NCBI GenBank assembly: GCA_947175605.1
Contig: CAMWNH010000003.1
Coordinates: forward strand, 1-64,000
Source: an uncultured Porphyromonadaceae bacterium
GTDB lineage: Bacteria; Bacteroidota; Bacteroidia; Bacteroidales; Muribaculaceae
Length of the DNA stretch: 64,000 nucleotides
Direction: 5' to 3'
The notes beneath the pieces are model-generated. The model searched no databases and was not told where the DNA came from. It was given only the letters and a program-made list of their open reading frames with translations. Position 1 is the first letter of the stretch. Each line of letters opens with the position of its first letter. The position numbers and the translations under genes were made by a program. Positions 26,199 through 43,887 of this stretch are shown one piece after another.

Positions 26199-28466
26199 TT
26201 ATTCCACCGTGAAGGACTTGGACTCGCCGCTGGCGCTGTCCTGTGCTATCCACACCCGGAACTCACCCGGCTCGGTCACACGCTCGCTGCGGGCGTTGTG
26301 GAATGCCAGGTCATCGGGCGTGAGTGTGAAGCTCACGGTGCGCTTCTCTCCCGGAGCCAGCTCGATTTTCTCGAAGCCTTTTAGCTCCTTCACCGGGCGG
26401 CAGAGCGATCCCACTACGTCGCGAACATAGAGCTGTGCCACGGTGGCGCCCTTCACGCTGCCCGTGTTTTCAATTTCGCATGTAGCCCTTATGCTGCCGT
26501 CCTTGGCGTCCATCTTGTCCGTCGACAGCACCACAGGGCCATAACTGAAATCCGTGTAGCTGAGACCGTAGCCGAACGGATAGAGCGCGCCGTCGCCGCA
26601 GTCCATGTAGAAGCTCGTGCAGCCCGTCGAGGTCTGCCCCGCTTCCTGAGGCAGCTCGTCCATGAGCACCATGCCCTCGGCCGGACGACCCGTATTCTTG
26701 TGCGAGTAGTAGAGCGGAGCCTGTGCCGAGGCGCGAGGGATGCCGGCAGGAAGATGCCCCGACGGATTCACACTTCCGCTAAGCACATTCGCGATTGCAG
26801 GACCGCCCATCGTTCCCGGGTGGAAGCAGTAGAGAATAGCATCCGAATTGGCCACCACGTCGTTTATCTCCATAGGGCGTCCCGTCATCACTACGGACAC
26901 CACGGGCTTGCCCGTGGCTTTCAGCGCCTTGAGCATTTCCTTCTGGGCGCCGGGGAGCGTCAGGTCCGTGCGGCAGTGTGCCTCGCCGGACAGAACGGCT
27001 TCCTCGCCGCATACGAATACTATCACGTCGGCCGTGCGGGCCTTGACAACTGCCTGCGCAATGCCTGCCTTGTCCGTGTCGCGGCTATAGGTCAGACCGG
27101 GGGCGGCTACGACTTTATCCTTGCCGTACATATCGTTGAATGCATCCAGCACCGTCACGGTGTGCTCCTTCTCCGCATCGAAGCTCCACGTGCCGTTCTG
27201 GTCATGCTTAGCGTCCATCATCGGGCCCGTCAGCGCTACACGCACTCCGGGCTTCAGCGGAAGCACTCCACCCTCGTTTTTCAGCAGGATCGCGCTCTGC
27301 TCGGCCGCATGCTGCGCGGCAGCCAGATTGCCCTCCGTGTAGAATCTGCGGGCATTGGCCGTATCCACATACGGATTCTCGAAAAGCCCCAGACGGAACT
27401 TGAGACGCAGCACATTACGCACCAGATCGTCGAGCGTCTTCTCGCTCACCTTGCCCTGCTCCACAAGATCCTTCATGTGCGAAACGTAGGCGTAGCTCAT
27501 CATGTCCACGTCCACACCGGCCTTGGCGGCTGCCTCAGCCGCGTCCTTCAGGTCGGCCGAATAGCCCTGCGGAACAAGCTGTCCGATGGAATTCCAGTCG
27601 CTGCACATGACGCCGTCCCAGCCCCATTCGTCGCGAAGAATATCGCGCATCAGGTGTGTGTCGGCGTTGGTCGGCATGCCGTTTATATCATTGAATGAGC
27701 ACATGAACGTCGCAGCTCCCGCATCAGCGCATGCGTGGAACGGAGGCAGATACACATCGCGCAGATGAGGTTCCGGGATCCACGTCGTATTGTAGTCCTT
27801 GCCACCCTCGCTGGCTCCATATCCCACGAAGTGCTTCACACAGGCCGCCATCGTATTTGGCTGCGTCATGTCTTCGCCCTGATAGCCCTTGACCATGGCC
27901 ACTCCGAGCGTCGAGGCCAGATAAGGATCCTCACCGAAACTCTCGGCAATGCGACCCCAGCGCGCATCGCGGCTCACGTCCACCATGGGCGAGAATGTCC
28001 ACCGCACACCCACCGACGACGCCTCGTCGGCAGCCACGCGCGCGCCCTCCTCGATTAAAGCCGGATCCCAGCTCGAGGCCTGACCCAGAGGGATAGGGAA
28101 GATGGTCTTGAATCCGTGGATCACGTCGCGTGCCACGATCAGAGGTATGCCCAGACGACTGTTCTCCACAGCCTCACGCTGAAGCTTATTCACCGTGTCA
28201 GGGTCAACTTCATTGAGCAGCGAACCCACAAATCCGTTGCGCACCTCCGCAAGGCGCTGAGGATTAGCGCCCGTGCCGGTCAGCTGATTCAGCTGTCCGA
28301 TTTTCTCCTCTATGGTCATCTGCGAGAGCAGGGCCTCTATGCGGGCTTCAACATTATCCTTGTCATCCCCCCCGGCTACGCTCTTTACGCACGAACTGAT
28401 AGCTCCTCCGGCTACAATTACGCCGAGCAGTCCGAATGCTATGGACGGAAAGAGTTTCTTATTCAT
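26199..28466 (-). CDS. Glycoside hydrolase family 3 (beta-glucosidase), lipoprotein
   Basis: VARDVIHGFKTIFPIPLGQASSWDP; GVMCSDWNSIGQL nucleophile region; C-terminal FnIII-like domain; SSC lipobox. Confidence 0.93.
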   Translation of the reverse strand: MNKKLFPSIAFGLLGVIVAGGAISSCVKSVAGGDDKDNVEARIEALLSQMTIEEKIGQLNQLTGTGANPQRLAEVRNGFVGSLLNEVDPDTVNKLQREAVENSRLGIPLIVARDVIHGFKTIFPIPLGQASSWDPALIEEGARVAADEASSVGVRWTFSPMVDVSRDARWGRIAESFGEDPYLASTLGVAMVKGYQGEDMTQPNTMAACVKHFVGYGASEGGKDYNTTWIPEPHLRDVYLPPFHACADAGAATFMCSFNDINGMPTNADTHLMRDILRDEWGWDGVMCSDWNSIGQLVPQGYSADLKDAAEAAAKAGVDVDMMSYAYVSHMKDLVEQGKVSEKTLDDLVRNVLRLKFRLGLFENPYVDTANARRFYTEGNLAAAQHAAEQSAILLKNEGGVLPLKPGVRVALTGPMMDAKHDQNGTWSFDAEKEHTVTVLDAFNDMYGKDKVVAAPGLTYSRDTDKAGIAQAVVKARTADVIVFVCGEEAVLSGEAHCRTDLTLPGAQKEMLKALKATGKPVVSVVMTGRPMEINDVVANSDAILYCFHPGTMGGPAIANVLSGSVNPSGHLPAGIPRASAQAPLYYSHKNTGRPAEGMVLMDELPQEAGQTSTGCTSFYMDCGDGALYPFGYGLSYTDFSYGPVVLSTDKMDAKDGSIRATCEIENTGSVKGATVAQLYVRDVVGSLCRPVKELKGFEKIELAPGEKRTVSFTLTPDDLAFHNARSERVTEPGEFRVWIAQDSASGESKSFTVE

Positions 28467-28506
28467 TAGTCTTGAACTATAGTCTGTAATGATTGGTCTT
28501 TGATGT

Positions 28507-29700
28507 TTAGAATGTCAGTTTCGCAGCAGCCGTACCACCCTGCGAAAGACGAGCCTGCACCACGAATACACCCGAGCCCAGAGCCGATGTATTCACGAAG
28601 CTTTCGCCACGGGCCACCTCGCGTCCGCACAAGTCATACACCTGCATGTCCACAGCTCCCGCGCAGCTCACGCCTCCGTTTTCGTGCTTTATCATGCCGG
28701 ATTCCGAATCCTTGTCGACAAGCACTCCTTCGATGCCGGCCTCGGTGAGAGGATCGCCCGGATCCGTAAAGAACTGGCTTTCATCAGGCGTACCCTTCTG
28801 ATAGATCTTCACGTAGTTGATATACATCGAAGCCCGCTGACCGTTCTCTTCGTTCAGGGCCGTGATCTGATTCGCATCATAGATTCCGGGGAAGTTGCCT
28901 CCCACAGCAAGATTGAAGAGTATGAAGAAATCCTTGTGGAAAAAATTTCCGGCCCAATTGGGGAAATTTTCATTCTCGCCTTCTATATTCTTCTTGAAGT
29001 AAGGCTCCTGATCGGGATACTTGTCAAGATCGCAGTACATGGCTATGGATTTTTCATCCCATATCATCGTGTAGAGATGGAATTCATCGTCCTGCAGGCT
29101 GTAGGCATGATTGTGGTGGGTGGCCGAACTCATCTGAGGCATACTTTTTCCCCAGTGGCAAGCTCCGTTGAAGAATGTTTCCTGCTGATTTTTCCGTATG
29201 CCGTCGGCATGTCCGAACTCCATGATGTCGATTTCGCCGCACTTGGGCCACTTCACGGCATCATAGTCATTACCCATCAGCCAGAATGCCGGCCAGAGTC
29301 CGTTAGCAGTCTTCGGAAGCTTGATCGCAGCTTCAACCTTGCCGTGCTTGAACGCGATCTTGTTTTTCGAATTCACGCGGCCCGATGTGAAGGGCTTGCT
29401 CCAGAACGACTCGCGCTTGGCCGTGAGGATAAGGCAGCCGTTGCCCTTATCGTCCTTGCCTACTATGGCATTGTCCGAATCGTTCACATAGAACTGAAGC
29501 TCGTTATTGCCCCCGCCTCCACCGTTCAGCTCCACATGCCAACGGTCGGGGTTAAGCGCATCGCCATCGAAGAGGTCCTGCCACACGAGCTTGTAGCCGT
29601 TCACTTCGCCCGAACCCGTCTGAGCTTCCTGCGCATTGGCTTCGGGGGCGCAAAACATCAGTGCGCCCAGCAGTCCCGCTATGAATTGCCTTGTTTTCAT
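28507..29700 (-). CDS. Glycoside hydrolase family 16 (laminarinase-like)
   Basis: YKLVWQDLFDGDALNPDRWHVELN; CGEIDIMEFGH catalytic ExDxxE; signal peptide; Por-type tail. Confidence 0.92.
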   Translation of the reverse strand: MKTRQFIAGLLGALMFCAPEANAQEAQTGSGEVNGYKLVWQDLFDGDALNPDRWHVELNGGGGGNNELQFYVNDSDNAIVGKDDKGNGCLILTAKRESFWSKPFTSGRVNSKNKIAFKHGKVEAAIKLPKTANGLWPAFWLMGNDYDAVKWPKCGEIDIMEFGHADGIRKNQQETFFNGACHWGKSMPQMSSATHHNHAYSLQDDEFHLYTMIWDEKSIAMYCDLDKYPDQEPYFKKNIEGENENFPNWAGNFFHKDFFILFNLAVGGNFPGIYDANQITALNEENGQRASMYINYVKIYQKGTPDESQFFTDPGDPLTEAGIEGVLVDKDSESGMIKHENGGVSCAGAVDMQVYDLCGREVARGESFVNTSALGSGVFVVQARLSQGGTAAAKLTF

Positions 29701-29703
29701 TCT

Positions 29704-31341
29704 TTATTTCACGAGCACCTTGCGGACACTCTTTTCTGTCTTTACGATATAGATTCCTGCGCCAAGGCCCTGAAGGTCAGTGCCGCGGCGCACTTCGCGA
29801 CCGAAGATGTCATAAACAGCTCCTTCGCCGCAATCTTCAGCTACATTCGCAGCCTCGACTCCCGTCAGCGAGCCCTTGTGTGCATACAGATTGTCGATGT
29901 AGATGGCATGCTCGTCGCCCGCTGCACGCGATGCAGTAGCGTTCACGAACTTGAACTGGCCAAGCTTCGCGAAATTCACGTTGGGAAACTCCGACAGGGG
30001 CATATCGAACGAACACCATTTGTCAGCCGAAAGCTGCTTCACGGATTTATCGAGATCATAGGTCGGGAAAAGCGAAATGGGATAGATCTCGATTTCCATG
30101 TCGCGCGTCGAATAAAGATCTATGTGCAGATACTTCATATCGGACAGATCGACCAGATCGTCGCTGTGCGAGAACTGCAGGCCCATGTAGTTGAAGTTGG
30201 TCATACGCATGGCCTCGTTGCCCTCAAGGCTCACCTTCTCCGTTTCGGTGGTTTGTCCCCACCAGCCCACGAAAAGATCGGGAACGACCGAAGCGTATGT
30301 ATCTGAATAGAAACTCTTAACAAGGCTTGCATCTGTCGTGGGCTCGGGAGCTGCTGTCATGGTCGTGGGTTTGGGAACGATCGGTTCGGGAGTCGTACCG
30401 CCGATAGGATCGCCTGCATCGGCGAATGTATGGCTCTCGTCTGAACCCCCTTTCTGATACACCTTCACGAAGTCGATATACATCGACTGCTCCTGATTGT
30501 TGCCGCTGTTCAGCGCCGTAACGCCGTTAGCGTTGAAAATCTGAGGAAATTGACCGCCGACAGCAAGATTGAACAGAATAAAGTTCTCCTTGTGGAAATA
30601 GTTGCCGGGATAGTCTGCAACTCCGGGCTGATTGTCCGTTATGCCCATTATGTAATAGGGCTCCTGATTCGGGTATTTATCAAGATCGCAGTACATGGCT
30701 ATACTGTTCTCGTCCCATATGCACGTATAGAGATGGAACTCGCCGTCCTGAAGGCTGTAGTCATGCGTGTGGGCGCGGGCATAGTTCGGTTGAGGCCAAC
30801 CCTGGCCCCAGTGGCATGCGCCGTTGAAGTAGCGGTCCTGTGTGCCGGCGCCGAAAGCATCGCAGTGGCCGAACTCCATGATGTCGATTTCTCCGCAGCG
30901 GGGCCAGCCCACCTCGTCGATATCATTTCCCATCATCCAGAATGCTGGCCAAAGGCCGTTGGCAGTTTTGGGAAGCTTTATGGAGGCCTCAACCTTGCCG
31001 TGCTTGAAGCTGATAAGCTTCTTCGAATTCACACGTCCGGACGTGAAGTTCTTACCCATATAATTTTCGCGCTTGGCCGTGAGGATCAGACAGCCGTTGC
31101 CCTGATCGTCTTTACCAACACGCACATTGCGGTCCGTGTAGTATTGCAGTTCATCGTTGCCGCCGCCGTCGCCGTTAACTTCAATGTTCCAGCGCGAGCG
31201 GTTCAGCTCGGTGCCGTCAAAAAGATCCTGCCACACGAGCTTGTAACCATTGGTTTCGCCTGAACCGGTGGTAGGGGCGCCATAAGACTCGCTCACTGCG
31301 AGAGCGGCTATGGCAAATATGGTGAGTTTAAGTAGTTTCAT
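29704..31341 (-). CDS. Glycoside hydrolase family 16 with additional C-terminal beta-sandwich module and T9SS-like tail
   Basis: YKLVWQDLFDGTELNRSRWNIEVN; CGEIDIMEFGH; tail LGAGIYIVKTEKSVRKVLVK. Confidence 0.92.
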   Translation of the reverse strand: MKLLKLTIFAIAALAVSESYGAPTTGSGETNGYKLVWQDLFDGTELNRSRWNIEVNGDGGGNDELQYYTDRNVRVGKDDQGNGCLILTAKRENYMGKNFTSGRVNSKKLISFKHGKVEASIKLPKTANGLWPAFWMMGNDIDEVGWPRCGEIDIMEFGHCDAFGAGTQDRYFNGACHWGQGWPQPNYARAHTHDYSLQDGEFHLYTCIWDENSIAMYCDLDKYPNQEPYYIMGITDNQPGVADYPGNYFHKENFILFNLAVGGQFPQIFNANGVTALNSGNNQEQSMYIDFVKVYQKGGSDESHTFADAGDPIGGTTPEPIVPKPTTMTAAPEPTTDASLVKSFYSDTYASVVPDLFVGWWGQTTETEKVSLEGNEAMRMTNFNYMGLQFSHSDDLVDLSDMKYLHIDLYSTRDMEIEIYPISLFPTYDLDKSVKQLSADKWCSFDMPLSEFPNVNFAKLGQFKFVNATASRAAGDEHAIYIDNLYAHKGSLTGVEAANVAEDCGEGAVYDIFGREVRRGTDLQGLGAGIYIVKTEKSVRKVLVK

Positions 31342-31499
31342 TTCAGGAGGAACACAAGCATTGTGTTCAGAGATTATGATGGTTTAATGATTGGAAAAGT
31401 AAGGAGAAAGGATTGGGAGCAAACAAACAAACTTTTTTACCGGCAAAAATTGCACGACTTGGAAATCAGGGCGCTCGCATCGCGAGTGAGGAGTGAAAG

Positions 31500-31538
31500 G
31501 AGGGCGCGACTCGCGGCTATCGCTGCGGCCGCGCCCTC
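31500..31538 (-). other. Intercistronic GC-rich stem-loop between the CBM-like gene and GH16
   Basis: GAGGGCGCG...CGCGCCCTC 9-bp arms; no U-run. Confidence 0.55.
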
Positions 31539-31565
31539 GTTTGTAGGGTTATGGTCTATACGTGA

Positions 31566-32492
31566 TTACTTCACGACAACCTTGGCAACCTTGTTGCCGG
31601 CCTTGGCGATGTAGAGACCTGCGCCGATGCCTTCGAGGCCCATGACGGAGCTGTTGGCACGCTTAACGGTCTTGCCTGCGAGGTCATAGAGAACGATGCT
31701 CGATGCGCCTGCAGCGTTGATGGTGCGGCCCGTGATTACGAGGTCGGTACCTTCTGCTTCTACGCCCTTGATGCCTGCTTCCTTGGTGGTGTAAAGATAG
31801 ATAGCGTCGAAGTCGAAGTTCTGGCCGGATACGCCGCCTGCGAGGAACGAGAAGTAGTTACCCTTATAGTCAGCGACTGCGGGAACGGTGAAGGTGGGGC
31901 AAAGTTTCTTAAGATCGGAGAACTTCACGTCAACTGCCTGCCATTCGTCAGAGGGAGCGGGGCCTACAGGGGGGAAAGTGGTGCCGTTGTCCACGAATGC
32001 ATCACCTACAGAGATCTGTGCGGGCTTGTTGCCGGCATCACCTGCGAAGAGGATGAGGGCGAGCGACTTGACGGGATTCGTCATTGCGCAATAGCCGAGG
32101 TGGAAATAGGTGTCGTCGTCGAGGTCGGAGAAGTCAGTGCCCGGGCCTACAGCGCACATACCGGCGCCGGACCAACCCACAGTACCTACGGTCAGAGCGA
32201 TGTGGCCGTTGGTCTGGAAGTCAGCACCTACAGGGCTGGCGGAAGTTTCGTTGCCTACCAGAGTGTTGTCCCAGATGTAGAGGAAACGGGTTTCGTCGTT
32301 GATCTGCTGATCAATTACGTTTACACCCTTGGCGGTCAGAGCGTCCATGGCTGCTGCATCCAGAGACCATGCGTAAACGGTCTTGACACCCTTTTCAAGT
32401 ACGGGTGCTACACCTGCGTCATCAGTCACGTACTGAGCGTTTGCGCCCATGGCAACGGCGGCCATAGCAGCAAGAAGAGTAAATTTTTTCAT
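31566..32492 (-). CDS. Secreted PUL protein, beta-sandwich/CBM-like, with T9SS-like C-terminal tail (SusE/F position)
   Basis: Signal peptide MKKFTLLAAMAAVAMGANAQ; tail VLYDLAGKTVKRANSSVMGLEGIGAGLYIAKAGNKVAKVVVK. Confidence 0.72.
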   Translation of the reverse strand: MKKFTLLAAMAAVAMGANAQYVTDDAGVAPVLEKGVKTVYAWSLDAAAMDALTAKGVNVIDQQINDETRFLYIWDNTLVGNETSASPVGADFQTNGHIALTVGTVGWSGAGMCAVGPGTDFSDLDDDTYFHLGYCAMTNPVKSLALILFAGDAGNKPAQISVGDAFVDNGTTFPPVGPAPSDEWQAVDVKFSDLKKLCPTFTVPAVADYKGNYFSFLAGGVSGQNFDFDAIYLYTTKEAGIKGVEAEGTDLVITGRTINAAGASSIVLYDLAGKTVKRANSSVMGLEGIGAGLYIAKAGNKVAKVVVK

Positions 32493-32522
32493 GTGTATGA
32501 AAAGTTTAATGGTTGGTAATTT

Positions 32523-32542
32523 GCCGGGGCCGAAGCCCCGGC
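32523..32542 (-). other. Intercistronic stem-loop with cUUCGg tetraloop downstream of susD
   Basis: On - strand GCCGGGGC-TTCG-GCCCCGGC, 8-bp perfect stem, no U-run. Confidence 0.8.
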
Positions 32543-32571
32543 GTTAGTTATTGGTTGTTTTGAGTCTCAGA

Positions 32572-34167
32572 TTAGTACCCGGGGTTCTGTTCCATCGGGT
32601 TCAGGTTGATTTCCTCGGCGGGAATGGGATAGATTTCCGACTGGCCGGGGATGAAGTTGCCCATCTCGGCGCGCACCTCGGCCGTTTCCGTTGCAGGATA
32701 GCCCGTGCTCATGTTGAAGATCTCCGGACCGATGCCCCAGCGAACGATGTCATACCAGCGGTGGCCTTCGCCTGCCAGCTCTACTCGGCGCTCGTGGCGG
32801 ATAGCCTTGCGCAGATCGTCCGTTGTGTCCTTATAGCCGCGATAGCCGGGGAAGGCGGGTAGAACGCTGCCGGAAGCCATGTTGCGAGCGCGGCTGCGGA
32901 CTTCTTCAAGCGCCCACTTGGCGTCCGTAATGCTCTTGCCGCTTTCCAGAGCTGCTTCTGCAAAGAGCAGGAGAGCGTCGGAAGCGCGGAGCTGACGGTT
33001 GTTGAAGGGCGAACGCGTGGCGTGTGCCAGCGAGGGGAATGCTCCGTGTTCCCAGTAGGAGATCTTGCGGTTGTAGTAGGAGTTGCCCAGATAGTCCACT
33101 TCAGCAATACCCACTTCGGCAGCATCGGGAAGACCGATGGTCAGGTCGCGGCGAGGGTCGCCGGCCTCGAATTCGTCAAAGAGGTTCTGTGTCGGGTGTC
33201 CGAAGCCCCAACCTGCGTTGCCGCCCATGCTCGGGAGACGCGGACGCGACAGAATGGTCGAGAATGTGCCGCGGGTGAAACCGAAGCCGTCGCCATAGTC
33301 GCTCGTTGGCTCTTCCATATACTGGATCTCGAACACGCTCTCGGGGCCGTTTTCGCCGGCAAGCGTAAAGTTGTCGCCGAAATCGGAGCAGAGGCTGTAC
33401 TGGCCGCCCTTATACTGCGTGTCCACGAACTTCTTGCCCCACGTGTAAGCGTTGTCGTAGTCCTTCATGAACAGATACACCTTGCAGAGCATGGCCTGTG
33501 CGGCGCCCTTGGTGGCACGGCCGAGGTCTGCTGCTGCATATTCGCTCTTGTTCCAGAGCGACTTTTCTGCCTCGAGAAGGTCGCTGATGATGTGCTCATA
33601 CACGGCCTCGGCAGTTGCGCGGGGCTGAACCCACTTGTCGCTCGAGTCGATCACGAAATCCACCAGAGGAACACCGCCGAACACGCGCACCAGCTGGAAA
33701 TAGTAGTAAGCGCGGAGGAAGTATGCCTCGGCCAGAAGGCAGGCCTTGCGGCTCTCGTTCATCTCGTCATCCGGCTCCATCTTCACAACCTCCTGCAGTG
33801 CAAGATTGCATCGTGCGATGCCCTGATACTTGGCACGGTAGAAGTTAAGAAGAATGGGGTTGTTGGCGTTCACCTTGAAATTGTCGATATCGTACACATC
33901 GCCGCCGTCGGCAAGGTTCTGACCGCCCTTGAGGGCATCGTCGGATGCGATATCCCCGATATACCATTCAGGGAAGTAGCAGCCGTTGAATTCCCATGCC
34001 AACGGAGTGTAGCATGCATTCACGTTCTGGATGGCAACCGCACCGCTGATATAGAAGTCATCGAAGCGGGTCGTGCCGGGAGCGTCCTCGTCAAGCCAGT
34101 CGTTGCAAGAGCTCATGCTCAGGCTCATAGCCACGGCGACAGCACCTATATAAAGTGTCTTTTTCAT
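32572..34167 (-). CDS. susD: SusD/RagB family nutrient-binding outer-membrane lipoprotein
   Basis: MKKTLYIGAVAVAMSLSMSSCNDWLDEDAPG; YFLRAYYYFQLVRVFGGVPLV; RHERRVELAGEGHRWYDIVRWG. Confidence 0.95.
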   Translation of the reverse strand: MKKTLYIGAVAVAMSLSMSSCNDWLDEDAPGTTRFDDFYISGAVAIQNVNACYTPLAWEFNGCYFPEWYIGDIASDDALKGGQNLADGGDVYDIDNFKVNANNPILLNFYRAKYQGIARCNLALQEVVKMEPDDEMNESRKACLLAEAYFLRAYYYFQLVRVFGGVPLVDFVIDSSDKWVQPRATAEAVYEHIISDLLEAEKSLWNKSEYAAADLGRATKGAAQAMLCKVYLFMKDYDNAYTWGKKFVDTQYKGGQYSLCSDFGDNFTLAGENGPESVFEIQYMEEPTSDYGDGFGFTRGTFSTILSRPRLPSMGGNAGWGFGHPTQNLFDEFEAGDPRRDLTIGLPDAAEVGIAEVDYLGNSYYNRKISYWEHGAFPSLAHATRSPFNNRQLRASDALLLFAEAALESGKSITDAKWALEEVRSRARNMASGSVLPAFPGYRGYKDTTDDLRKAIRHERRVELAGEGHRWYDIVRWGIGPEIFNMSTGYPATETAEVRAEMGNFIPGQSEIYPIPAEEINLNPMEQNPGY

Positions 34168-34227: not shown

Positions 34228-37200
34228 TTAGTAAGTGATGTTCACACCGAAGAGGAAGGTGCGGCTCTGCGGATAGTTACCGTAGTCTACACCGCCGTTA
34301 ACCTCGGGGTCGAAGCCTTTGTACTTCGTGACCGTGAACAGGTTGGAACCCTGGATGTAGAAGCGGCAGTTCTCGAAACCGGCGCGGCTGATCAGGTGGC
34401 GCGGCAGGGAGTAGCCGATCTGCAGGTTCTTCAGGCGGAAGTAGTCGCCCTTCTCCAGGAAGCGGTCGCTGGCGTAGTAGTTGACAGAGTTACGCGGATT
34501 GGGAATGCAGCCCTCGGGATTGTCTACCGTCCATGCGTCCTTCATGATGGGCGAGAGTACGCTCGTAGCGCCGCTGCTCTCAAGACGGTGACGCATCTGG
34601 TTGTAGATCTTGTTGCCGCCTACGCCCTGGAAGAAGAGCTGCAGGTCGAAGTCCTTCCAGTATGCTCCGAGGTTGATACCATAGTTCAGCCAGGGAATCG
34701 ACGAACCGAGGTCCACACGGTCGTTGTCGTCGATTGTTCCGTTCCCGTCGCTGTCGATGTACTTGGCATCGCCGGCATGGAAAGGAATGTTTTCTGCCGT
34801 ATAGCCCGTGAGGTAAGCGAGAGCCTCCTCATCCGTGCGGTAGATACCGTCGTACTGATAGCCCCAGAAGTAGTAGAGCGGATAGCCCTCGTCCACAACC
34901 TGCACGTTTGCGAAGTTGGTGGGGATGCGTGCACCGCCGTTAAGTGCGGTCAGCTTGTTGTCGATGAACGATACGTTGCCGCCAACACTGTAGGAGAAGT
35001 CACGCGTAACGGTGTTGCGGTGCTCGAGGCTGATTTCAATACCCTTGTTGCGCACCTTACCCACATTGGCAGTAGCCGAGTAACGGTTGCCCACCTGTGC
35101 GGGAGCGTTCACGCTCATGAGCATGTCGTTGGTGTTACGGATGAAGCCGTCCACCGAACCGGTCAGCTTGTTGTTCCAGAAACCGAAATCAACACCAAGG
35201 CTCCACTGTTCGGTATTTTCCCAGTGACCGCCGCGGTTCACCCACGTCAGCACCGTGGCGCCGTTGGCAAGAGACTGATCGGCACCGAAAACGTAGTCGA
35301 CAAACGTAGGACCGTTGTTGAACATGCTCAGCGTAAAGGCATTGTTGGAGATATTGTCGTTACCTACCTTACCCCAGCCGAAACGCAGCTTAAGATTCGA
35401 AAGATTCGTGAAGTCCTTCATGAACTCTTCCTGGTCGATACGCCATGCAAGCGAGAAAGAGGGGAAGTAGCCCCAGCTGTTCTCGGGGAACTTGCTCGAA
35501 CCGTCGGCACGGAAGTTCACAGTTGCCAGATAGCGGTCGTTGAAGCTGTAGAAGAGGCGGCCGAGCCACGAGAAACGACGGTTGCGGGCCACGCTGTCGC
35601 CGGGACGTCCGAAATCATCGGTCACCTGCGAGAGATACCAGTTCTTCTCGACGGGGTTCAGGATCATCGAACCCGAGCTGCCGATGCTGTAATAGTTGTA
35701 TTCTTCGACCGTCTGGCCCACCATTGCAGAGAAGTTATGCTTGCCGATGGTGCGGGCATAGGTCAGGATGTTATCCACGTTGTAGTAGTAGGCGCGGGCC
35801 ATCGAGGACGACAGGAAATTCTTTTCGCGACGGTCGTATGCGCTCACCTCATACGCTTCCATGAAGCTCTTGTCCGTGGTGATACGATAGTCGAAGCTGT
35901 AGCTCGTGCGGAACGTGAGGTGCTTGATAGGCTGGATTTCTGCGAACACGTTACCTACCCAACGCTCGTTGCGGGTCTTGGGATGAGAGTATTCGACCAT
36001 GCTCAGCGGGTTGGTCACGTTCTTGAAGTTCGAACCGGCGGAAATACCGTTGCTCAGATCCTTGCCGTTGCGGTTCACGCTGCCTTCCGGATAGCGCGTG
36101 GGATCCCAGGGAGCCATTGCGAAGGCAGCCGAGAGGATATTCGCGCCTGCGCTCTCGCTGTTATCACCGCTCTCGTATGCATTCTGTGCTACAGAAGCCA
36201 TGAACGAGATGTTCTCGCCAACCTTGAGCCAGGGGAGTGCCTGATAAGTCGTGTTCAGACGTGCGGTGAAACGGCTGTAGTCGGAACCGATGATGATACC
36301 TTCCTGCTTGAACCAGCTGCCGCTCATCGAATATGTGAACTTGTCGCCGCCGCCGTCGATGCTGAGGTGATAGTTCTGAATCATACCGTCGCGGAACACA
36401 ACGTCCTGCCAGTCCGTATCTACGGAAGAATAGTCAAAACCGGTAGGATTCTTTTCAGGATCATATACGGTGGGATAGTAAGGCGAGGAAGCGACACCCT
36501 GATAAATTGAAAGCCACTTGTTGAAGCCCTGCTCCTCATACACCTTCTTCGAGCTCTTGTTGCCGTTGATTGCAACATATGTGTCAGCGAAGTCCTTGGC
36601 GTTCATCACATCGAGCTTCTTCCAACGCTGCTGCACGCCCACGTATGCATCGAGGGTCACGCGCGCACGCTGGTCGCGAGAGCCACTCTTAGTGGTAACG
36701 AGGATCACACCGTTCGCACCGCGCGAACCGTAGATGGCTGTCGCGGAGGCATCCTTCAGGATTTCGGTGCTGGCGATATCGTTGGGGGAAAGGAAGTTGA
36801 TGTCGTCGGTAATAACGCCGTCCACAACGTAGATGGGCGATGCGCCGTTGATGGTTCCGACACCGCGGATACGAACTTCCGCTCCTGCGCCCGGACGTCC
36901 GCTAAGGGAGTTCACGGTCACACCGGCAGCCTGACCCTGAAGGGCGTTGGCAAGCGACGCTGCGGGAGTCTTCTGAAGCTTGTCGGCGCCCACGGTCGTC
37001 ACCGAACCCGTGAGATCGCTCTTCTTCATTGTACCATAACCTACGACAACGACCTCGTCAAGCTCGTTGGAGCCTTTCATGACGATGTCGAGAGTGCCGG
37101 CAGCGGTCACTGTCTTTTCAACAGGATCGCAACCTACATAGGTAAACATAAGTTTTGCACCGGGAGCCACAGTGATAGTATATATACCATCGATATCTGT

Positions 37201-37362
37201 AGTCACGCCGTTGCGTTGGTTACTCAGGTCACGGACGGAAACGCCAATCAGCGGTTCTCCGTCTTCGGCCGAGGTGACGGTTCCCGTCACACGTAAGCCT
37301 TGGGCAAACACAGGGGCTATACCCAGAAGCATGAGAAACAAGAGTGTAGTTAATCGAGCCAT
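34228..37362 (-). CDS. susC: SusC/RagA family TonB-linked outer-membrane protein
   Basis: VTGTVTSAEDGEPLIGVSVRDL; LDEVVVVGYGTMKKSDLTGSV; plug AALQGQAAGV-like region; beta-barrel end LFGVNITY. Confidence 0.96.
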   Translation of the reverse strand: MARLTTLLFLMLLGIAPVFAQGLRVTGTVTSAEDGEPLIGVSVRDLSNQRNGVTTDIDGIYTITVAPGAKLMFTYVGCDPVEKTVTAAGTLDIVMKGSNELDEVVVVGYGTMKKSDLTGSVTTVGADKLQKTPAASLANALQGQAAGVTVNSLSGRPGAGAEVRIRGVGTINGASPIYVVDGVITDDINFLSPNDIASTEILKDASATAIYGSRGANGVILVTTKSGSRDQRARVTLDAYVGVQQRWKKLDVMNAKDFADTYVAINGNKSSKKVYEEQGFNKWLSIYQGVASSPYYPTVYDPEKNPTGFDYSSVDTDWQDVVFRDGMIQNYHLSIDGGGDKFTYSMSGSWFKQEGIIIGSDYSRFTARLNTTYQALPWLKVGENISFMASVAQNAYESGDNSESAGANILSAAFAMAPWDPTRYPEGSVNRNGKDLSNGISAGSNFKNVTNPLSMVEYSHPKTRNERWVGNVFAEIQPIKHLTFRTSYSFDYRITTDKSFMEAYEVSAYDRREKNFLSSSMARAYYYNVDNILTYARTIGKHNFSAMVGQTVEEYNYYSIGSSGSMILNPVEKNWYLSQVTDDFGRPGDSVARNRRFSWLGRLFYSFNDRYLATVNFRADGSSKFPENSWGYFPSFSLAWRIDQEEFMKDFTNLSNLKLRFGWGKVGNDNISNNAFTLSMFNNGPTFVDYVFGADQSLANGATVLTWVNRGGHWENTEQWSLGVDFGFWNNKLTGSVDGFIRNTNDMLMSVNAPAQVGNRYSATANVGKVRNKGIEISLEHRNTVTRDFSYSVGGNVSFIDNKLTALNGGARIPTNFANVQVVDEGYPLYYFWGYQYDGIYRTDEEALAYLTGYTAENIPFHAGDAKYIDSDGNGTIDDNDRVDLGSSIPWLNYGINLGAYWKDFDLQLFFQGVGGNKIYNQMRHRLESSGATSVLSPIMKDAWTVDNPEGCIPNPRNSVNYYASDRFLEKGDYFRLKNLQIGYSLPRHLISRAGFENCRFYIQGSNLFTVTKYKGFDPEVNGGVDYGNYPQSRTFLFGVNITY

Positions 37363-37452: not shown

Positions 37453-37460
37453 CAAAATTA
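37453..37460 (-). promoter_or_regulatory. -7 box TAATTTTG of the susC promoter
   Basis: CAAAATTA on + strand; 90 nt from susC ATG. Confidence 0.5.
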
Positions 37461-37504
37461 TATATAAAGGAAGACAGATTTGCAAAAACCAACTCAATAA
37501 AAAC

Positions 37505-37554
37505 CCTACAATGCGATTTTAACAACCCTACAACACTCCTACAATGCGGTTTTA
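37505..37554. repeat. Helically phased direct repeats CCTACAA (3 copies), outer pair extended to CCTACAATGCG(A/G)TTTTA
   Basis: CCTACAA at 37505, 37527, 37538 (spacing 22 and 11 bp); 17-mers at 37505-37521 and 37538-37554 differ at one base. Confidence 0.85.
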
Positions 37555-37676
37555 TCATGCTGTATATCTGCCCGTTACGAAAAACATGTTTTATAACATA
37601 CTTTTTGACAATACACAACCCGATATATTTTGCGAAATTTGCATCAGGAAAAATTTTCCGACCATACCGAATATTC

Positions 37677-40601
37677 ATGAAGACTTCGAAGCATTATATC
37701 TTTAACAACATTTTTTACATAACCGTACTGATTGCTGCGTGCCTGTCGTGTCCGTTCACGGTGGACGCGTCATTCCCCACGGTGCGGAACTTTCCGCGCA
37801 CCGTATATTCCTGGGGATCTCAGAACTGGTCGTCCGACGAGGATAGCAACGGCATGATGTACTTCGGAAACAAAAACGGACTGCTCACATTCGACGGAAC
37901 CCGCTGGCGCAACTATATTCTTCCGAATCTCTCGACAGTCCGCGCCGTGCTCGTGGACGACGCAAATTCACGCGTTTACCTCGCAGGCTCGGAGGAATTC
38001 GGATACTACAGCTTCAACCCCGATACGCGCCGTATAGCCTATACATCTCTCTCAAAGGACTTTCCGGAAGCGCCCACCAGCTACGGCGAAATATGGAAGA
38101 TACATGAAGGCGACAATACGATATGGTTTCAGGGCGACCACGCCATCTTCGGCTACAGCACAAAGGGCGAGCACTTTGTAGCATCCGTTAGGGAGAAAAT
38201 ACTTACATCGGCATACATAAACGGTGTGCTCTACGCCGCTCTAAACGAAAAAGGGCTATGCCAGATGCGCGACGGACTATTCACGCCACTCGATTCAGGA
38301 GGACCGACCGATGGGAAGCGCATCGTAGCAATATGTCCCTTCGGCAACGAAGTCCTGATAGTCACGCAGTTCGACGGAATCTTCCTTTACGGCCCATCGG
38401 GCGTCAAGAAAATGGCGACAAATTTCGACAATTTCTTGCGCGAAAACCAAGCATTCTGCGCAGACACGCAAGGCACGGAGCTTGCCATCGGGACCGTCAA
38501 CGGAGGACTTGTCGTATGCAATTTTGGAGCAGACACTCCACCCACTTATTCCAACACCGACTCGGGCATGCAGAACAACACGGTACTGTCCGTGAAATTC
38601 GATAGCCACCACAACATCTGGTGCGGACTGGATAACGGTCTGGACTATGTATGCTACGACGCTCCATTCCGTTCAATCCTCTCACGCGCAAATGCTTGCG
38701 GTGCCGGATACGCATCACTTGTAAGCGCAGGAAAACTCTACCTGGGTACCAATCAAGGACTCTACACCACACCATTCAAACCCGACTACGACTTCGAAAC
38801 CCCACGACGCGAAATTCCCGGTCAGGTATGGAAGATCACCAACATCGGAAATGCCGTTGCAGCATGCACGGACGCGGGACTGTTCATTGACAACGGACGC
38901 GGATTCGAACACGTGGAAAACACTGCAGGAACTTGGGACATCGAGCTCCTACCCGACGCGCCGGGATATGCCCTCGCCTCAACGTATGAGAACTTCATTC
39001 TACTCGAAAATTCGGGTGCTCGATGGAACAACCGCGGACGCGTGGCCGGCTTCTCGGACATCAACGGCAAATTTATAATAGACAACGACGGCGCGATATG
39101 GATATCCCATTGGCTCAAAGGCGTCTATCGCCTCCATCTCGACCTTGCCAAGCAGCGCTTCGATGTCGTTGACTTCTTCGATTCCACCCGAGGCCTTTCG
39201 TCCAACGAGAACACCTCTGTGGCAATGCACGACGGCACACCGGTAATAAGCTGTTCCGGAGGATATTACACCCTCCAAGGCAAAGGCACGAACAACGAAA
39301 AGATGGTGCCCCACCCCGAGCTTAACCGCTATTTTAGCGCCCAGGTCTCGCCCCATCTCTATCATAGCCCCGGGGGCGAGGTCTGGAGTGTGACCCCTGA
39401 CAACGTTTACGTGATGCGCGCACGCGCCGACGGCTCGCACGCAGTCGATTCCGTGACCTTCTCGCCCATGAGCCGTTCGATAATCCCCGGCTTTGATTCC
39501 TTCAACTTCGTGGATGAGTCGCACGTGATAGCATCTGCCGAGGATGGCTTCTATGAGCTCGACACACATCGCGCTTTCAGCGCACCACGCCTCACGAGCC
39601 GCCACGGCGCACTCGTCAGCGCCATATACGCCAATCAGGATTCGCTGGTCTATCTTGCTTTCGGTGCCGCCGAAGCCAATGAACCGCGCTTTTCCAACGA
39701 CCTGAACTCCCTGCGCTTTGAGTTCGCTGCCCCCGGCCATACAGGCGAAGCCAAGAACATAGTATTCAGCCACTATCTCGAAAACTACGACGACGATTGG
39801 AGCAGTTTTACAGACGCGAACAGCAAGGAATATACCCAGCTGCACGAAGGCGACTACACGCTGCACCTGCGCGCCTACAACTCGGCCACACACAGCGTGG
39901 ACGAGCACAGCATACGCTTCTCCGTGCTCCCGCCTTGGTATCGCAGCACGTGGGCCAAGGTCATCTACACACTTCTCACGCTCATGCTCTTCTACACCGG
40001 CTTCAAGGTCGTCTCGTACGTATCCGAGCGCAACTCCCTGGCCGTAGCCCGACGCAAGGAGGAAGAGATGGAACATCTGCGCGCACGGGCCGCAGAAGAA
40101 TCCCTACGCAAGGAAAACGAAATCTCCGACCTCAAGAACCAGCAGCTTGAACAGGACATCCGACACAAGGCCGGCGAGCTCTCGAATATAACCATGAACG
40201 TCGTGCGCAAGAACGAGATTCTCATGAACATATCCTCGCGCCTGACGAAAATACAGCGCATGCTCGAGGTGGCTACCCCGGCGGAAACGAATGCTCAGCT
40301 CACCAAGATCCAGACTCTGATCCAGGAGAACCTCAGCCACGACGACGACTGGAAAACCTTCACAGGCAACTTCGACGCCGTGTATGAGGACTTCACCAAG
40401 CGCCTGCGCGAACTGCATCCGTCGCTCACGCCGGCCGAGCTGCGTGTGTGCTGCTATCTGCGCATGGGCCTAAGTTCCAAGGACATGGCCCCTCTATTCA
40501 ACATCTCCTACCGCTCTGTGGAAATGACACGCTATCGTCTACGCAAGAAGTTGAACCTCGATCGCGAAGACAAGCTTACGGACTATCTGAACAGCCTCTG
40601 A
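37677..40601 (+). CDS. PUL regulator: periplasmic beta-propeller / Y_Y_Y sensor, TM, coiled coil and LuxR-type HTH
   Basis: N-terminal propeller-like repeats, FEFAAPGH...YRSTWAKVIYTLLTLMLFYTGF TM, E/R-rich coiled coil, C-term LTPAELRVCCYLRMGLSSKDMAPLFNISYRSVEMTRYRLRKKLNL. Confidence 0.88.
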   Translation: MKTSKHYIFNNIFYITVLIAACLSCPFTVDASFPTVRNFPRTVYSWGSQNWSSDEDSNGMMYFGNKNGLLTFDGTRWRNYILPNLSTVRAVLVDDANSRVYLAGSEEFGYYSFNPDTRRIAYTSLSKDFPEAPTSYGEIWKIHEGDNTIWFQGDHAIFGYSTKGEHFVASVREKILTSAYINGVLYAALNEKGLCQMRDGLFTPLDSGGPTDGKRIVAICPFGNEVLIVTQFDGIFLYGPSGVKKMATNFDNFLRENQAFCADTQGTELAIGTVNGGLVVCNFGADTPPTYSNTDSGMQNNTVLSVKFDSHHNIWCGLDNGLDYVCYDAPFRSILSRANACGAGYASLVSAGKLYLGTNQGLYTTPFKPDYDFETPRREIPGQVWKITNIGNAVAACTDAGLFIDNGRGFEHVENTAGTWDIELLPDAPGYALASTYENFILLENSGARWNNRGRVAGFSDINGKFIIDNDGAIWISHWLKGVYRLHLDLAKQRFDVVDFFDSTRGLSSNENTSVAMHDGTPVISCSGGYYTLQGKGTNNEKMVPHPELNRYFSAQVSPHLYHSPGGEVWSVTPDNVYVMRARADGSHAVDSVTFSPMSRSIIPGFDSFNFVDESHVIASAEDGFYELDTHRAFSAPRLTSRHGALVSAIYANQDSLVYLAFGAAEANEPRFSNDLNSLRFEFAAPGHTGEAKNIVFSHYLENYDDDWSSFTDANSKEYTQLHEGDYTLHLRAYNSATHSVDEHSIRFSVLPPWYRSTWAKVIYTLLTLMLFYTGFKVVSYVSERNSLAVARRKEEEMEHLRARAAEESLRKENEISDLKNQQLEQDIRHKAGELSNITMNVVRKNEILMNISSRLTKIQRMLEVATPAETNAQLTKIQTLIQENLSHDDDWKTFTGNFDAVYEDFTKRLRELHPSLTPAELRVCCYLRMGLSSKDMAPLFNISYRSVEMTRYRLRKKLNLDREDKLTDYLNSL

Positions 40602-40756: not shown

Positions 40757-41560
40757 ATGAGACTTAAGACCCTCGTTATCATAGGAGCCGCAGTGCTCGC
40801 GCTATCGTCTTGTTCGTCATCAAAGACGGTACTCCCCTACTTCACAGATATTTCCGCCATCGAAGAAGGCAGTTTTGATGCCGGCAACTATACACCGGCC
40901 ATCAAGCCCGACGATGAGCTTTTCATATCCGTACAGTCCGAAGTTCCCGGTGCATCCGCGCCCTACAATCTGCCTATGGTGAATCCTGCGTCGCGCGACC
41001 AGCTGACCTTAGCCACCACACCGCGCCAGCAGACATATACCGTTGATTCGCAGGGCTATATCCACTTCCCCATCTTAGGCCGCATCAAGGTCGAAGGTCT
41101 CACCTGCGAGCAGCTCCAGGCCGAGCTTACAAAGAAAATCTCCGCTGACGTCACCGATCCGCTCGTGACAGTAAAGCTCGTCAATTTTGCAGTCGTCGTG
41201 GCAGGTGAAGTAGCCAAACCCGGAAAAATTCTCGTTAACGGCAATCGCATCAGCGTGCTCGATGCTATCGGCGCCGCCGGAGATCTCACGCCATACGGCG
41301 AACGCTCCAACGTGCTCGTGATCCGCGAGGAAAACGGCAAACGCGTATTCCATCACCTCGACCTCAACTCGTCGAAAACACTCACCTCCCCCTACTTCTA
41401 TCTCCAACAGAACGACTACGTTTACGTAGAGCCGAATAAAGTACGCCAAGCCAACTCGAAATACAATCAGGACAATGCCTACAAGCTGACGGTGATTTCC
41501 ACCATCGTGAGCGCCGCATCCGTAGTCGCATCCCTCGTTATCGCACTGGCCATCAAGTAA
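40757..41560 (+). CDS. wza: Polysaccharide export outer-membrane lipoprotein (Wza/BexD type)
   Basis: ALSSCSSSK lipobox; QTYTVDSQGYIHFPILGRIKVEGLTCEQLQAEL; SLBB-like GEVAKPGKILVNGNRISVLDAIGAAG. Confidence 0.92.
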   Translation: MRLKTLVIIGAAVLALSSCSSSKTVLPYFTDISAIEEGSFDAGNYTPAIKPDDELFISVQSEVPGASAPYNLPMVNPASRDQLTLATTPRQQTYTVDSQGYIHFPILGRIKVEGLTCEQLQAELTKKISADVTDPLVTVKLVNFAVVVAGEVAKPGKILVNGNRISVLDAIGAAGDLTPYGERSNVLVIREENGKRVFHHLDLNSSKTLTSPYFYLQQNDYVYVEPNKVRQANSKYNQDNAYKLTVISTIVSAASVVASLVIALAIK

Positions 41561-41592
41561 AACCGCAAACATCGTCACAATTCTGAAATACG

Positions 41593-43887
41593 ATGCAAAG
41601 AAAATCCAACTCCGAATATTTCGACCTTAAAGGCCTGCTCGGAAACTACCTGAAACACTGGTATCTGTTTGTAATCTCCGTGCTCGTCTGCGGTTCCGCA
41701 GCCTTTCTATACACCCGGGTGAAGAAGCCCATCTACGGTGTACGCGCCAACATCGCCATCAATACCGGCAACGAAAATCCCATCTCCTCCCTCGGCGCTA
41801 TGGGTGCGCTTTTCGGCGATGGCGGTTTCATTGACGACGAAATATTCGTCATCACCTCCCATACTGTCTACAAGGAAGTTGCGAAGAAACTTCAGACGGA
41901 GGTCAATCATTTCGTACGCGAAGGATTTATGGACTCTCGCTTCGCCTACGACGATTTCCCCGTGCAGATCTACATGGAGCCGTCCATTCCCGATACCCTC
42001 TCGACAGGACTTGGATTCACAGTGAAAGTAGACGAAAAAGAACGCGTATCCATCAAAGGCAAAGCAAATAAGACGCAAATTGCCGAAGTCAAGGACGCGA
42101 CCTTCCCCGTGACGGTCGAGACCCCGTACGGCAACTTCGTATTCAACAAAACCGAACATTTCAAGAAAGGCGAGCCGCTCAAGACCGTGATAGCCGTCGA
42201 GAGCTACAACTCCGCGGCCGAATCCTTGGCCAAGAACGTAATCAGCGACATCGCATCCCGCAAGAGCAATGTCATTGAAATGGCCATAAACACCACCAAC
42301 CCCGAATACGGCATGGCCATCCTCAACGAGATAATGGCTGAATACAACCGCAAGGGCGTGGACCAGAAGAACCTTCAGGGCGAGAAAACGGCGGAGTTCC
42401 TCGACAACCGTCTGAAACTTCTGGCCGGCGATCTCGACCTGGCCGAGACTGACATCCAGAAATACAAGCAGAAGGAAGGCATCGTGGACCTTGAAGTGGA
42501 GGCCACCTATCAGAGCCGAAAGAAAGGCGAAGTTGAAAATCAGCTCATCGAGGCCCAGACCGAAGCTGAGATTCTGAAAATGATAGGCGAATTCATCGCC
42601 GACCCGAAAAACGCCAACGCGCTGGTGCCCATGACCACATCCACAGAAGGTCTATCAAACGCCATAAAGACGTATAACGAGCTTATCATCAAGCGCATGG
42701 AGCTCGCCAACAATGCCCGCCCGAACAACTCCTCGCTACGCCTGCTCGACGAGCAGATCTCGGCGATGCGTTCGAACATCAACACCTCGCTCACAAAAGC
42801 ATACGACACACAGCGCATTGCCGTCAAGGAGCTTGAAAACGCACGTCGCGCCGCCGATACCCGCCTTGGCAACATCCCCTCGCAGGAACGCGCCTTCCGC
42901 GACATGCTTCGCCAGCAGACAATCAAGGAAAACCTCTACGTGTTCCTTCTCGAGCGCCGCGAAGAGAACGCCATACTCCTTGCGAATGCCGTTCCCAAAG
43001 GCACCATCATCGACGAGGCATATACGCTGATCGACCCCCTGTCGATGGACCGCAAGCTGCTCTGGCTCATCGGCCTGTTCATCGGCCTCCTGCTGCCGCC
43101 CATATTCCTGTGGATCAAGAGCATCCTTAACGATAAATTCGAGACCACATCCGAGGTCAAGCGCCTCACGGATGTGCCCGTCCTCGGCGAAATCTGCATC
43201 GACCGCACGGGCCGTTCGCTTGTCGTGTCACCCAACGACACCTCATCGACCACCGAACTGTTCCGCCTGCTGCGTTCCAATCTGCAGTTCATTCTTAGCG
43301 GCAACAACGATAAGGTGATCCTGATGACCTCCACATCCTCCGGCGAAGGCAAGAGCTTCATATCCACGAATCTCGCAGCCACATTCGCGCTTATGGGCAA
43401 GAAGGTCATACTCATAGGTATGGACATCCGCAAGCCCCGCCTTGCGTCCTACCTCAACATCAACCCCCGCTTCGGTCTCACGCAGTATCTCGCATCCAAC
43501 GACATCGAGCTCAAGCAGATCATCACCCACATGACCGAGATTCCGGGCATGGACGTTATCGTGGCCGGGCCCGTACCGCCGAATCCCTCGGAACTCCTTA
43601 CAAGCAACAAGGTCTCCGAGATGTTCAAGGAGCTGCGCAACATGTACGACTACATCATCATCGACTCCGCACCCGTGGGCATGGTCAGCGACACATTCTC
43701 GCTCGACCGAATCTCCGATGCCACGATCTACGTGTGCCGCGCCTCCTACACGAAGAAGCAGGATATAGACTTCGTGAACGAGATCTACGAAAACAAACGT
43801 CTGAAGAACCTCTCGCTTGTCGTGAACGGCACGAGCTCCAAGAAAGGCTACGGCTACGGCTACGGCGATTCCGAGCAACAGCGATAA
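41593..43887 (+). CDS. wzc: Wzc-like polysaccharide co-polymerase / BY-kinase
   Basis: Wzz N-term, GNVR region, VILMTSTSSGEGKSFISTNLAATFALMGKKVILIGMDIRKPRL; Tyr-containing tail GYGYGYGDSEQQR. Confidence 0.93.
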   Translation: MQRKSNSEYFDLKGLLGNYLKHWYLFVISVLVCGSAAFLYTRVKKPIYGVRANIAINTGNENPISSLGAMGALFGDGGFIDDEIFVITSHTVYKEVAKKLQTEVNHFVREGFMDSRFAYDDFPVQIYMEPSIPDTLSTGLGFTVKVDEKERVSIKGKANKTQIAEVKDATFPVTVETPYGNFVFNKTEHFKKGEPLKTVIAVESYNSAAESLAKNVISDIASRKSNVIEMAINTTNPEYGMAILNEIMAEYNRKGVDQKNLQGEKTAEFLDNRLKLLAGDLDLAETDIQKYKQKEGIVDLEVEATYQSRKKGEVENQLIEAQTEAEILKMIGEFIADPKNANALVPMTTSTEGLSNAIKTYNELIIKRMELANNARPNNSSLRLLDEQISAMRSNINTSLTKAYDTQRIAVKELENARRAADTRLGNIPSQERAFRDMLRQQTIKENLYVFLLERREENAILLANAVPKGTIIDEAYTLIDPLSMDRKLLWLIGLFIGLLLPPIFLWIKSILNDKFETTSEVKRLTDVPVLGEICIDRTGRSLVVSPNDTSSTTELFRLLRSNLQFILSGNNDKVILMTSTSSGEGKSFISTNLAATFALMGKKVILIGMDIRKPRLASYLNINPRFGLTQYLASNDIELKQIITHMTEIPGMDVIVAGPVPPNPSELLTSNKVSEMFKELRNMYDYIIIDSAPVGMVSDTFSLDRISDATIYVCRASYTKKQDIDFVNEIYENKRLKNLSLVVNGTSSKKGYGYGYGDSEQQR

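Follow-up and report, generated by a model that had tools for sequence, protein, structure and literature searches.

A conserved, 11-bp-phased direct-repeat array in the divergent susC/regulator control region of a Muribaculaceae PUL

The window analyzed here is a 64,000-nucleotide stretch of DNA from an uncultured Porphyromonadaceae bacterium. It contains a PUL whose susC homologue diverges from a regulator gene across a 314-bp intergenic region. The susC ATG (37362, minus strand), the susC -7 box (37453-37460), and the regulator ATG (37677) all lie where the original prediction had placed them. The genes concerned are as follows.

26199-34137, minus strand: remainder of the PUL, encoding SusD, a 308-aa protein (probably surface glycan binding), GH16, GH16, and GH3.
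34228-37362, minus strand: susC homologue (Pfam Plug / TonB_dep_Rec), first gene of the PUL and presumed target.
37677-40601, plus strand: regulator gene (974 aa), with signal anchor, beta-propeller sensor, Y_Y_Y domain, TM helix, coiled coil, and LuxR/GerE-type HTH.

We take the GH16/GH3 content to fit beta-1,3- or mixed-linkage glucan, and the predicted substrate of the PUL is a beta-glucan. At all 18 related loci examined, a susC ortholog was present with the same PUL. Directly downstream of the regulator, positions 40757-43887 carry Poly_export/SLBB polysaccharide export and Wzz-type kinase genes, apparently an exopolysaccharide/capsule locus.

Within the regulator, Pfam retrieved a Y_Y_Y domain (E = 4.5e-8) and a C-terminal match to GerE (PF00196) that was weak (E = 2.2e-4; 21.2 bits, below the gathering cutoff of 23.5). 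An AlphaFold model (mean pLDDT, 81) comprised a propeller sensor, a long helix including the membrane span, a poorly modelled coiled coil, and a helical C-terminal HTH. The best PDB matches to the sensor by Foldseek were the HTCS sensors BT4673, BT4663, and BT3049. The regulator shares with HTCS (e.g., BT4663 and BT3049) a periplasmic propeller/Y_Y_Y sensor, as well as probable direct-repeat operators near susC. In contrast to HTCS, it carries a predicted LuxR-type HTH, and the histidine kinase, the receiver, and the AraC HTH were all missing from the Pfam results, which consisted of Y_Y_Y and GerE only. As modelled, it joins an HTCS-like periplasmic sensor to a predicted LuxR-type HTH and lacks a kinase. 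A paralogue with 35% identity is encoded elsewhere in the same genome (G000:C4:54006-56807, L019), with neither a divergent susC nor a palindrome of the kind described below.

The intergenic region contains direct repeats. As originally reported, CCTACAA occurs on the plus strand at 37505, 37527, and 37538 (spacings of 22 and 11 bp), and the outer copies extend to 17-mers, CCTACAATGCGATTTTA and CCTACAATGCGGTTTTA, that lie 33 bp apart and differ by one mismatch. A scan of the 2.24-Mb genome for the 17-mer CCTACAATGCGRTTTTA with 0 mismatches returned the two window sites only. Among 5,000 dinucleotide shuffles of the intergenic region, three CCTACAA copies arose in none, a 17-mer pair with at most one mismatch in two, and any 7-mer in three copies whose spacings are multiples of 11 bp in one. 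An Rfam search of the region for an RNA element gave no match.

The orthologous regions define both the repeat unit and its surroundings. We compared 33 non-redundant susC/regulator intergenic regions (<75% identity; mean, 44%), aligned without gaps by anchoring each on a palindrome found in nearly all of them. Offsets below are counted from the first base of this palindrome (37585), and locus counts refer to the 33 loci.

37453-37460, minus strand: susC promoter -7 box TAATTTTG, at offset -132 (±1) in 32/33 loci.
37493-37499, plus strand: box0, CTCAATA (offset -92), weak (6/7 in the window), 11 bp before box1 and adjoining the susC -33 region.
37504-37510, plus strand: box1, CCCTACA (offset -81), at least 6/7 in 20/33 loci.
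37526-37532, plus strand: box2, CCCTACA (offset -59), containing the best-conserved box column (C in 29/33 loci).
37537-37543, plus strand: box3, TCCTACA (offset -48), at least 6/7 in 16/33 loci.
37565-37577, plus strand: IHF-like site TATCTGCCCGTTA (offset -20), matching 7/9 of WATCAANNNNTTR, with a T/A tract (37550-37554) 11 to 16 bp upstream; likewise absent from the original prediction.
37585-37600, no strand assigned: Crp/Cur-type palindrome CATGTTTTATAACATA (offset 0), one mismatch from TATGTTnTAnAACATA, near-invariant in orthologs, and absent from the original prediction.
37614-37620, plus strand: box4 position, CACAACC (offset +29), degenerate in the window (5/7), 77 bp from box3 and in the regulator -33 region.
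37634-37641, plus strand: regulator promoter -7 region GAAATTTG, a weak TAnnTTTG match (conserved xAnnTTTG, +49 to +56).

The conserved unit is CYCWACA (C[CT]C[TA]ACA), which begins one base 5' of CCTACAA, at 37504, 37526, and 37537. Because the weaker box0 lies on the same grid, the array has an 11-22-11 layout (box0-11-box1-22-box2-11-box3), of which boxes 1 to 3 had been recognized before. The boxes, the IHF-like site, the palindrome, and box4 were found in register at the listed offsets across the 33 loci. The array region holds 72 strict CYCWACA boxes, and their phases concentrate on a single 11-bp grid (Rayleigh R, 0.94). Every within-locus spacing (55/55) was 11, 22, or 33 bp (±1), and 81 of 82 strict boxes occupied one strand, with one on the other. 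Grid position -70 was nearly always empty, so the layout is one of two pairs. Loci varied on the common grid, some having boxes at -92/-81/-59 (11-22) and others at -81/-59/-48 (22-11). The box0 offset was conserved at a lower level, with a strong CCCTACA in L013, L035, and L040. At the box4 offset, at least 6/7 was matched in 14/33 loci, whereas no other downstream offset exceeded 6%. Since the 33 loci are related, these tests are not independent, and p-values overstate their independence.

The orthologous loci thus keep the boxes, their strand, their spacing, and how far they lie from the susC promoter. The loss of repeats or spacing in orthologs that would have spoken against the original prediction was not seen, and the fixed geometry is a feature which that prediction did not include. 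Judged from the alignment, the repeats belong to a larger island that is highly conserved and presumably regulatory. An AT-rich region with short repeats could, in principle, present such a pattern by chance or through residual homology and be functionless. Given the shuffle controls and a phase-locked conservation that persists at 44% identity between variable flanks, we consider this explanation extremely improbable. The claim that all copies occupy one helix face holds within the 44-bp array, where drift is small. It does not extend to box4, 77 bp away, because 11-bp steps against 10.5 bp per turn accumulate a large drift over that distance.

The geometry also has a boundary. Conservation stops at the regulator promoter, and the distance from palindrome to regulator gene ranges from 82 to 255 bp among loci (a spread of 173 bp); the rigidity is therefore a property of the control region alone. 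With start sites approximated from the -7 boxes according to the usual layout of Bacteroides promoters, box0 and box1 would lie at about -46 and -57 relative to the susC start, while the palindrome and box4 would lie at about -52 and -28 relative to the regulator start.

BT4338 is the regulator later named Cur. In Ravcheev et al. (2013; PMC3878776), the consensus for this Crp-family protein is wwwTATGTTnTAnAACATAwww, which the window palindrome fits, and a Crp-family protein is encoded in the same genome. A near-match palindrome lies 65 nt before the ATG of that gene (L136), directly after a -7-like TACCTTTG. This placement suggests autorepression and parallels what has been reported as autoregulatory in BT4338 orthologs. 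The resemblance to Cur/BT4338 sites covers both the palindrome and a Crp-family gene that itself has such a site upstream; the window palindrome is distinguished by its constant placement within a divergent region between a PUL regulator and susC.

In IHF-assisted regulatory regions of Escherichia coli, an IHF site lies between activator sites and another site. The window resembles these in having a WATCAANNNNTTR-like element with an upstream T/A tract between sites; this candidate IHF-like site is weak in the window (7/9). At least 7/9 was matched at this offset in 19/33 loci, compared with 2.5% of shuffles; because the match was sought after the conserved columns had been seen, this enrichment is suggestive only. 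The genome contains one clear short HU/IHF-family gene.

Several observations bear on which protein binds the boxes. A scan of 397 genomes for the three-box pattern gave 33 matches, about 21 of them at the regulator locus, while the reversed control gave 1. Outside the locus, most matches in relatives came from a repeat next to a recombinase or from 11-bp tandem repeats, and these were rejected as PUL operators. At L171, L183, L186, L191, and L197, CTCTCAACA / CTCTACA direct repeats occur near a tyrosine-recombinase-like gene and the end of a PEP-utilizing (ppdK-like) gene and are possibly integration-arm repeats. At L170 and L182 (and L190), CCCAACAGTTA forms 11-bp tandem repeats inside or beside coding sequence. 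Within the window genome, matches to a two-box pattern were no more common than in the reversed control, and thus no other target was found there. Regulator homologs with >36% identity, belonging to the same family, are mostly divergent from susC, and the array with a divergent susC and a GH16/GH3 PUL was also found in another family (L071/L127). Regulators at approximately 30% identity mostly lack both the divergent susC and the array.

In a diverged clade (clade B), the boxes read CTCAC at an 11-bp spacing, and the regulator's recognition helix reads VETARYR in place of VEMTRYR. Counted from the susC -7 box, the CTCAC boxes still hold to the grid, at offsets of 41/52, 51/62, and 129/151. We assign the boxes to the adjacent regulator because the array is nearly confined to its loci, because the boxes change with the recognition helix, and because no other regulator gene was seen among the PUL genes examined. 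The same three observations weigh against a different transcription factor, such as an HTCS/AraC protein or an unknown global factor, occupying the boxes while the adjacent regulator acts elsewhere. Inverted repeats are the usual targets of LuxR-type HTH dimers; the window boxes are purely direct repeats, which counts against binding by such a domain and in favor of another factor. We consider this alternative unlikely. The array is instead probably the operator of the PUL's own membrane-spanning regulator, set in a divergent control region of fixed geometry. The original prediction had proposed this operator, and the 33-locus conservation and the agreement of box sequence with HTH clade support it, with binding by the regulator as the step that we infer. 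That prediction had also allowed for autoregulation, and the recurrence of box4 at the regulator -33 region supports a putative autoregulatory contact in many relatives, although the box is degenerate in the window.

SusR-like regulators provide the closest layout for comparison (Ravcheev et al., 2013; PMC3878776). There, SusR-like proteins are predicted to recognize direct repeats whose centers are separated by 67 or 77 bp, the motifs consist of two sites with a long, nonconserved spacer, and the SusR DNA-binding domain is described as unlike that of other known transcription factors; in 2013 these DNA sites were predictions that still awaited experimental tests. The distance between box3 and box4 is 77 bp in clade A and 67/78 bp in the clade B loci L063/L065. 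Both systems place direct-repeat sites upstream of susC with a long spacing of 77 bp (67 bp in clade B), so the array may work like a SusR-type operator, the likeness being one of layout. The window differs in its dense, 11-bp-phased array with a distal box and in a regulator that joins an HTCS-like propeller sensor to a LuxR-type HTH with a weak GerE match. By analogy, the dense phased array may represent a SusR-type direct-repeat operator in a new form.

The same spacing could serve mainly autorepression, the regulator bridging boxes 0 to 3 and box4 over an IHF bend and silencing both promoters until ligand is present. Such looping would suit the position of box4 at the regulator -33 region, 77 bp from box3 with the IHF-like site between, as well as the 67/77-bp-spaced direct repeats of Bacteroides SusR-type motifs. 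Box4 is, however, poor in the window and missing from many loci, box0 abuts the susC -33 element in the manner of an activator site, and the characterized SusR-type regulators are activators (PMC3878776 and PMC6874557). We therefore regard a primarily silencing role as quite unlikely.

For the regulator acting on its own operator, we infer the following assignment of proteins to sites, sign of regulation, ligand, and looping. The LuxR-type HTH would bind CYCWACA boxes head to tail, in two pairs that each have an 11-bp spacing and are separated by 33 bp along the same face of the helix. The resulting oligomer would start beside the susC -33 element and contact RNA polymerase there, activating susC when beta-glucan oligosaccharide is sensed in the periplasm. 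The palindrome, some 50 bp ahead of the regulator start site, would be occupied by a Crp/Cur-family protein that makes expression of the regulator depend on carbon status. Looping and autoregulation are suggested by a putative IHF/HU-type bend between array and palindrome, together with the recurrent box4 at the regulator promoter, 77 bp from box3. A bolder version, which we offer tentatively and hold to be doubtful, treats the region as a rigid divergent module: the kinase-less, HTCS-sensored, LuxR-type membrane regulator would polymerize head to tail on the 11-bp-phased array, and the fixed IHF-type bend and Cur site would couple its own promoter, so that tethered sensors, carbon status, and looping form one switch.

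In the literature searched, we found no paper on Y_Y_Y-LuxR PUL regulators and no description of an operator for them. For this regulator class, the region would provide an operator grammar at base resolution, conserved across dozens of genomes. The grammar makes predictions about spacing, the oligomeric state of the regulator, input from Cur, and looping, all of which can be tested with reporters, and the region is a candidate part for building promoters that respond to beta-glucan.
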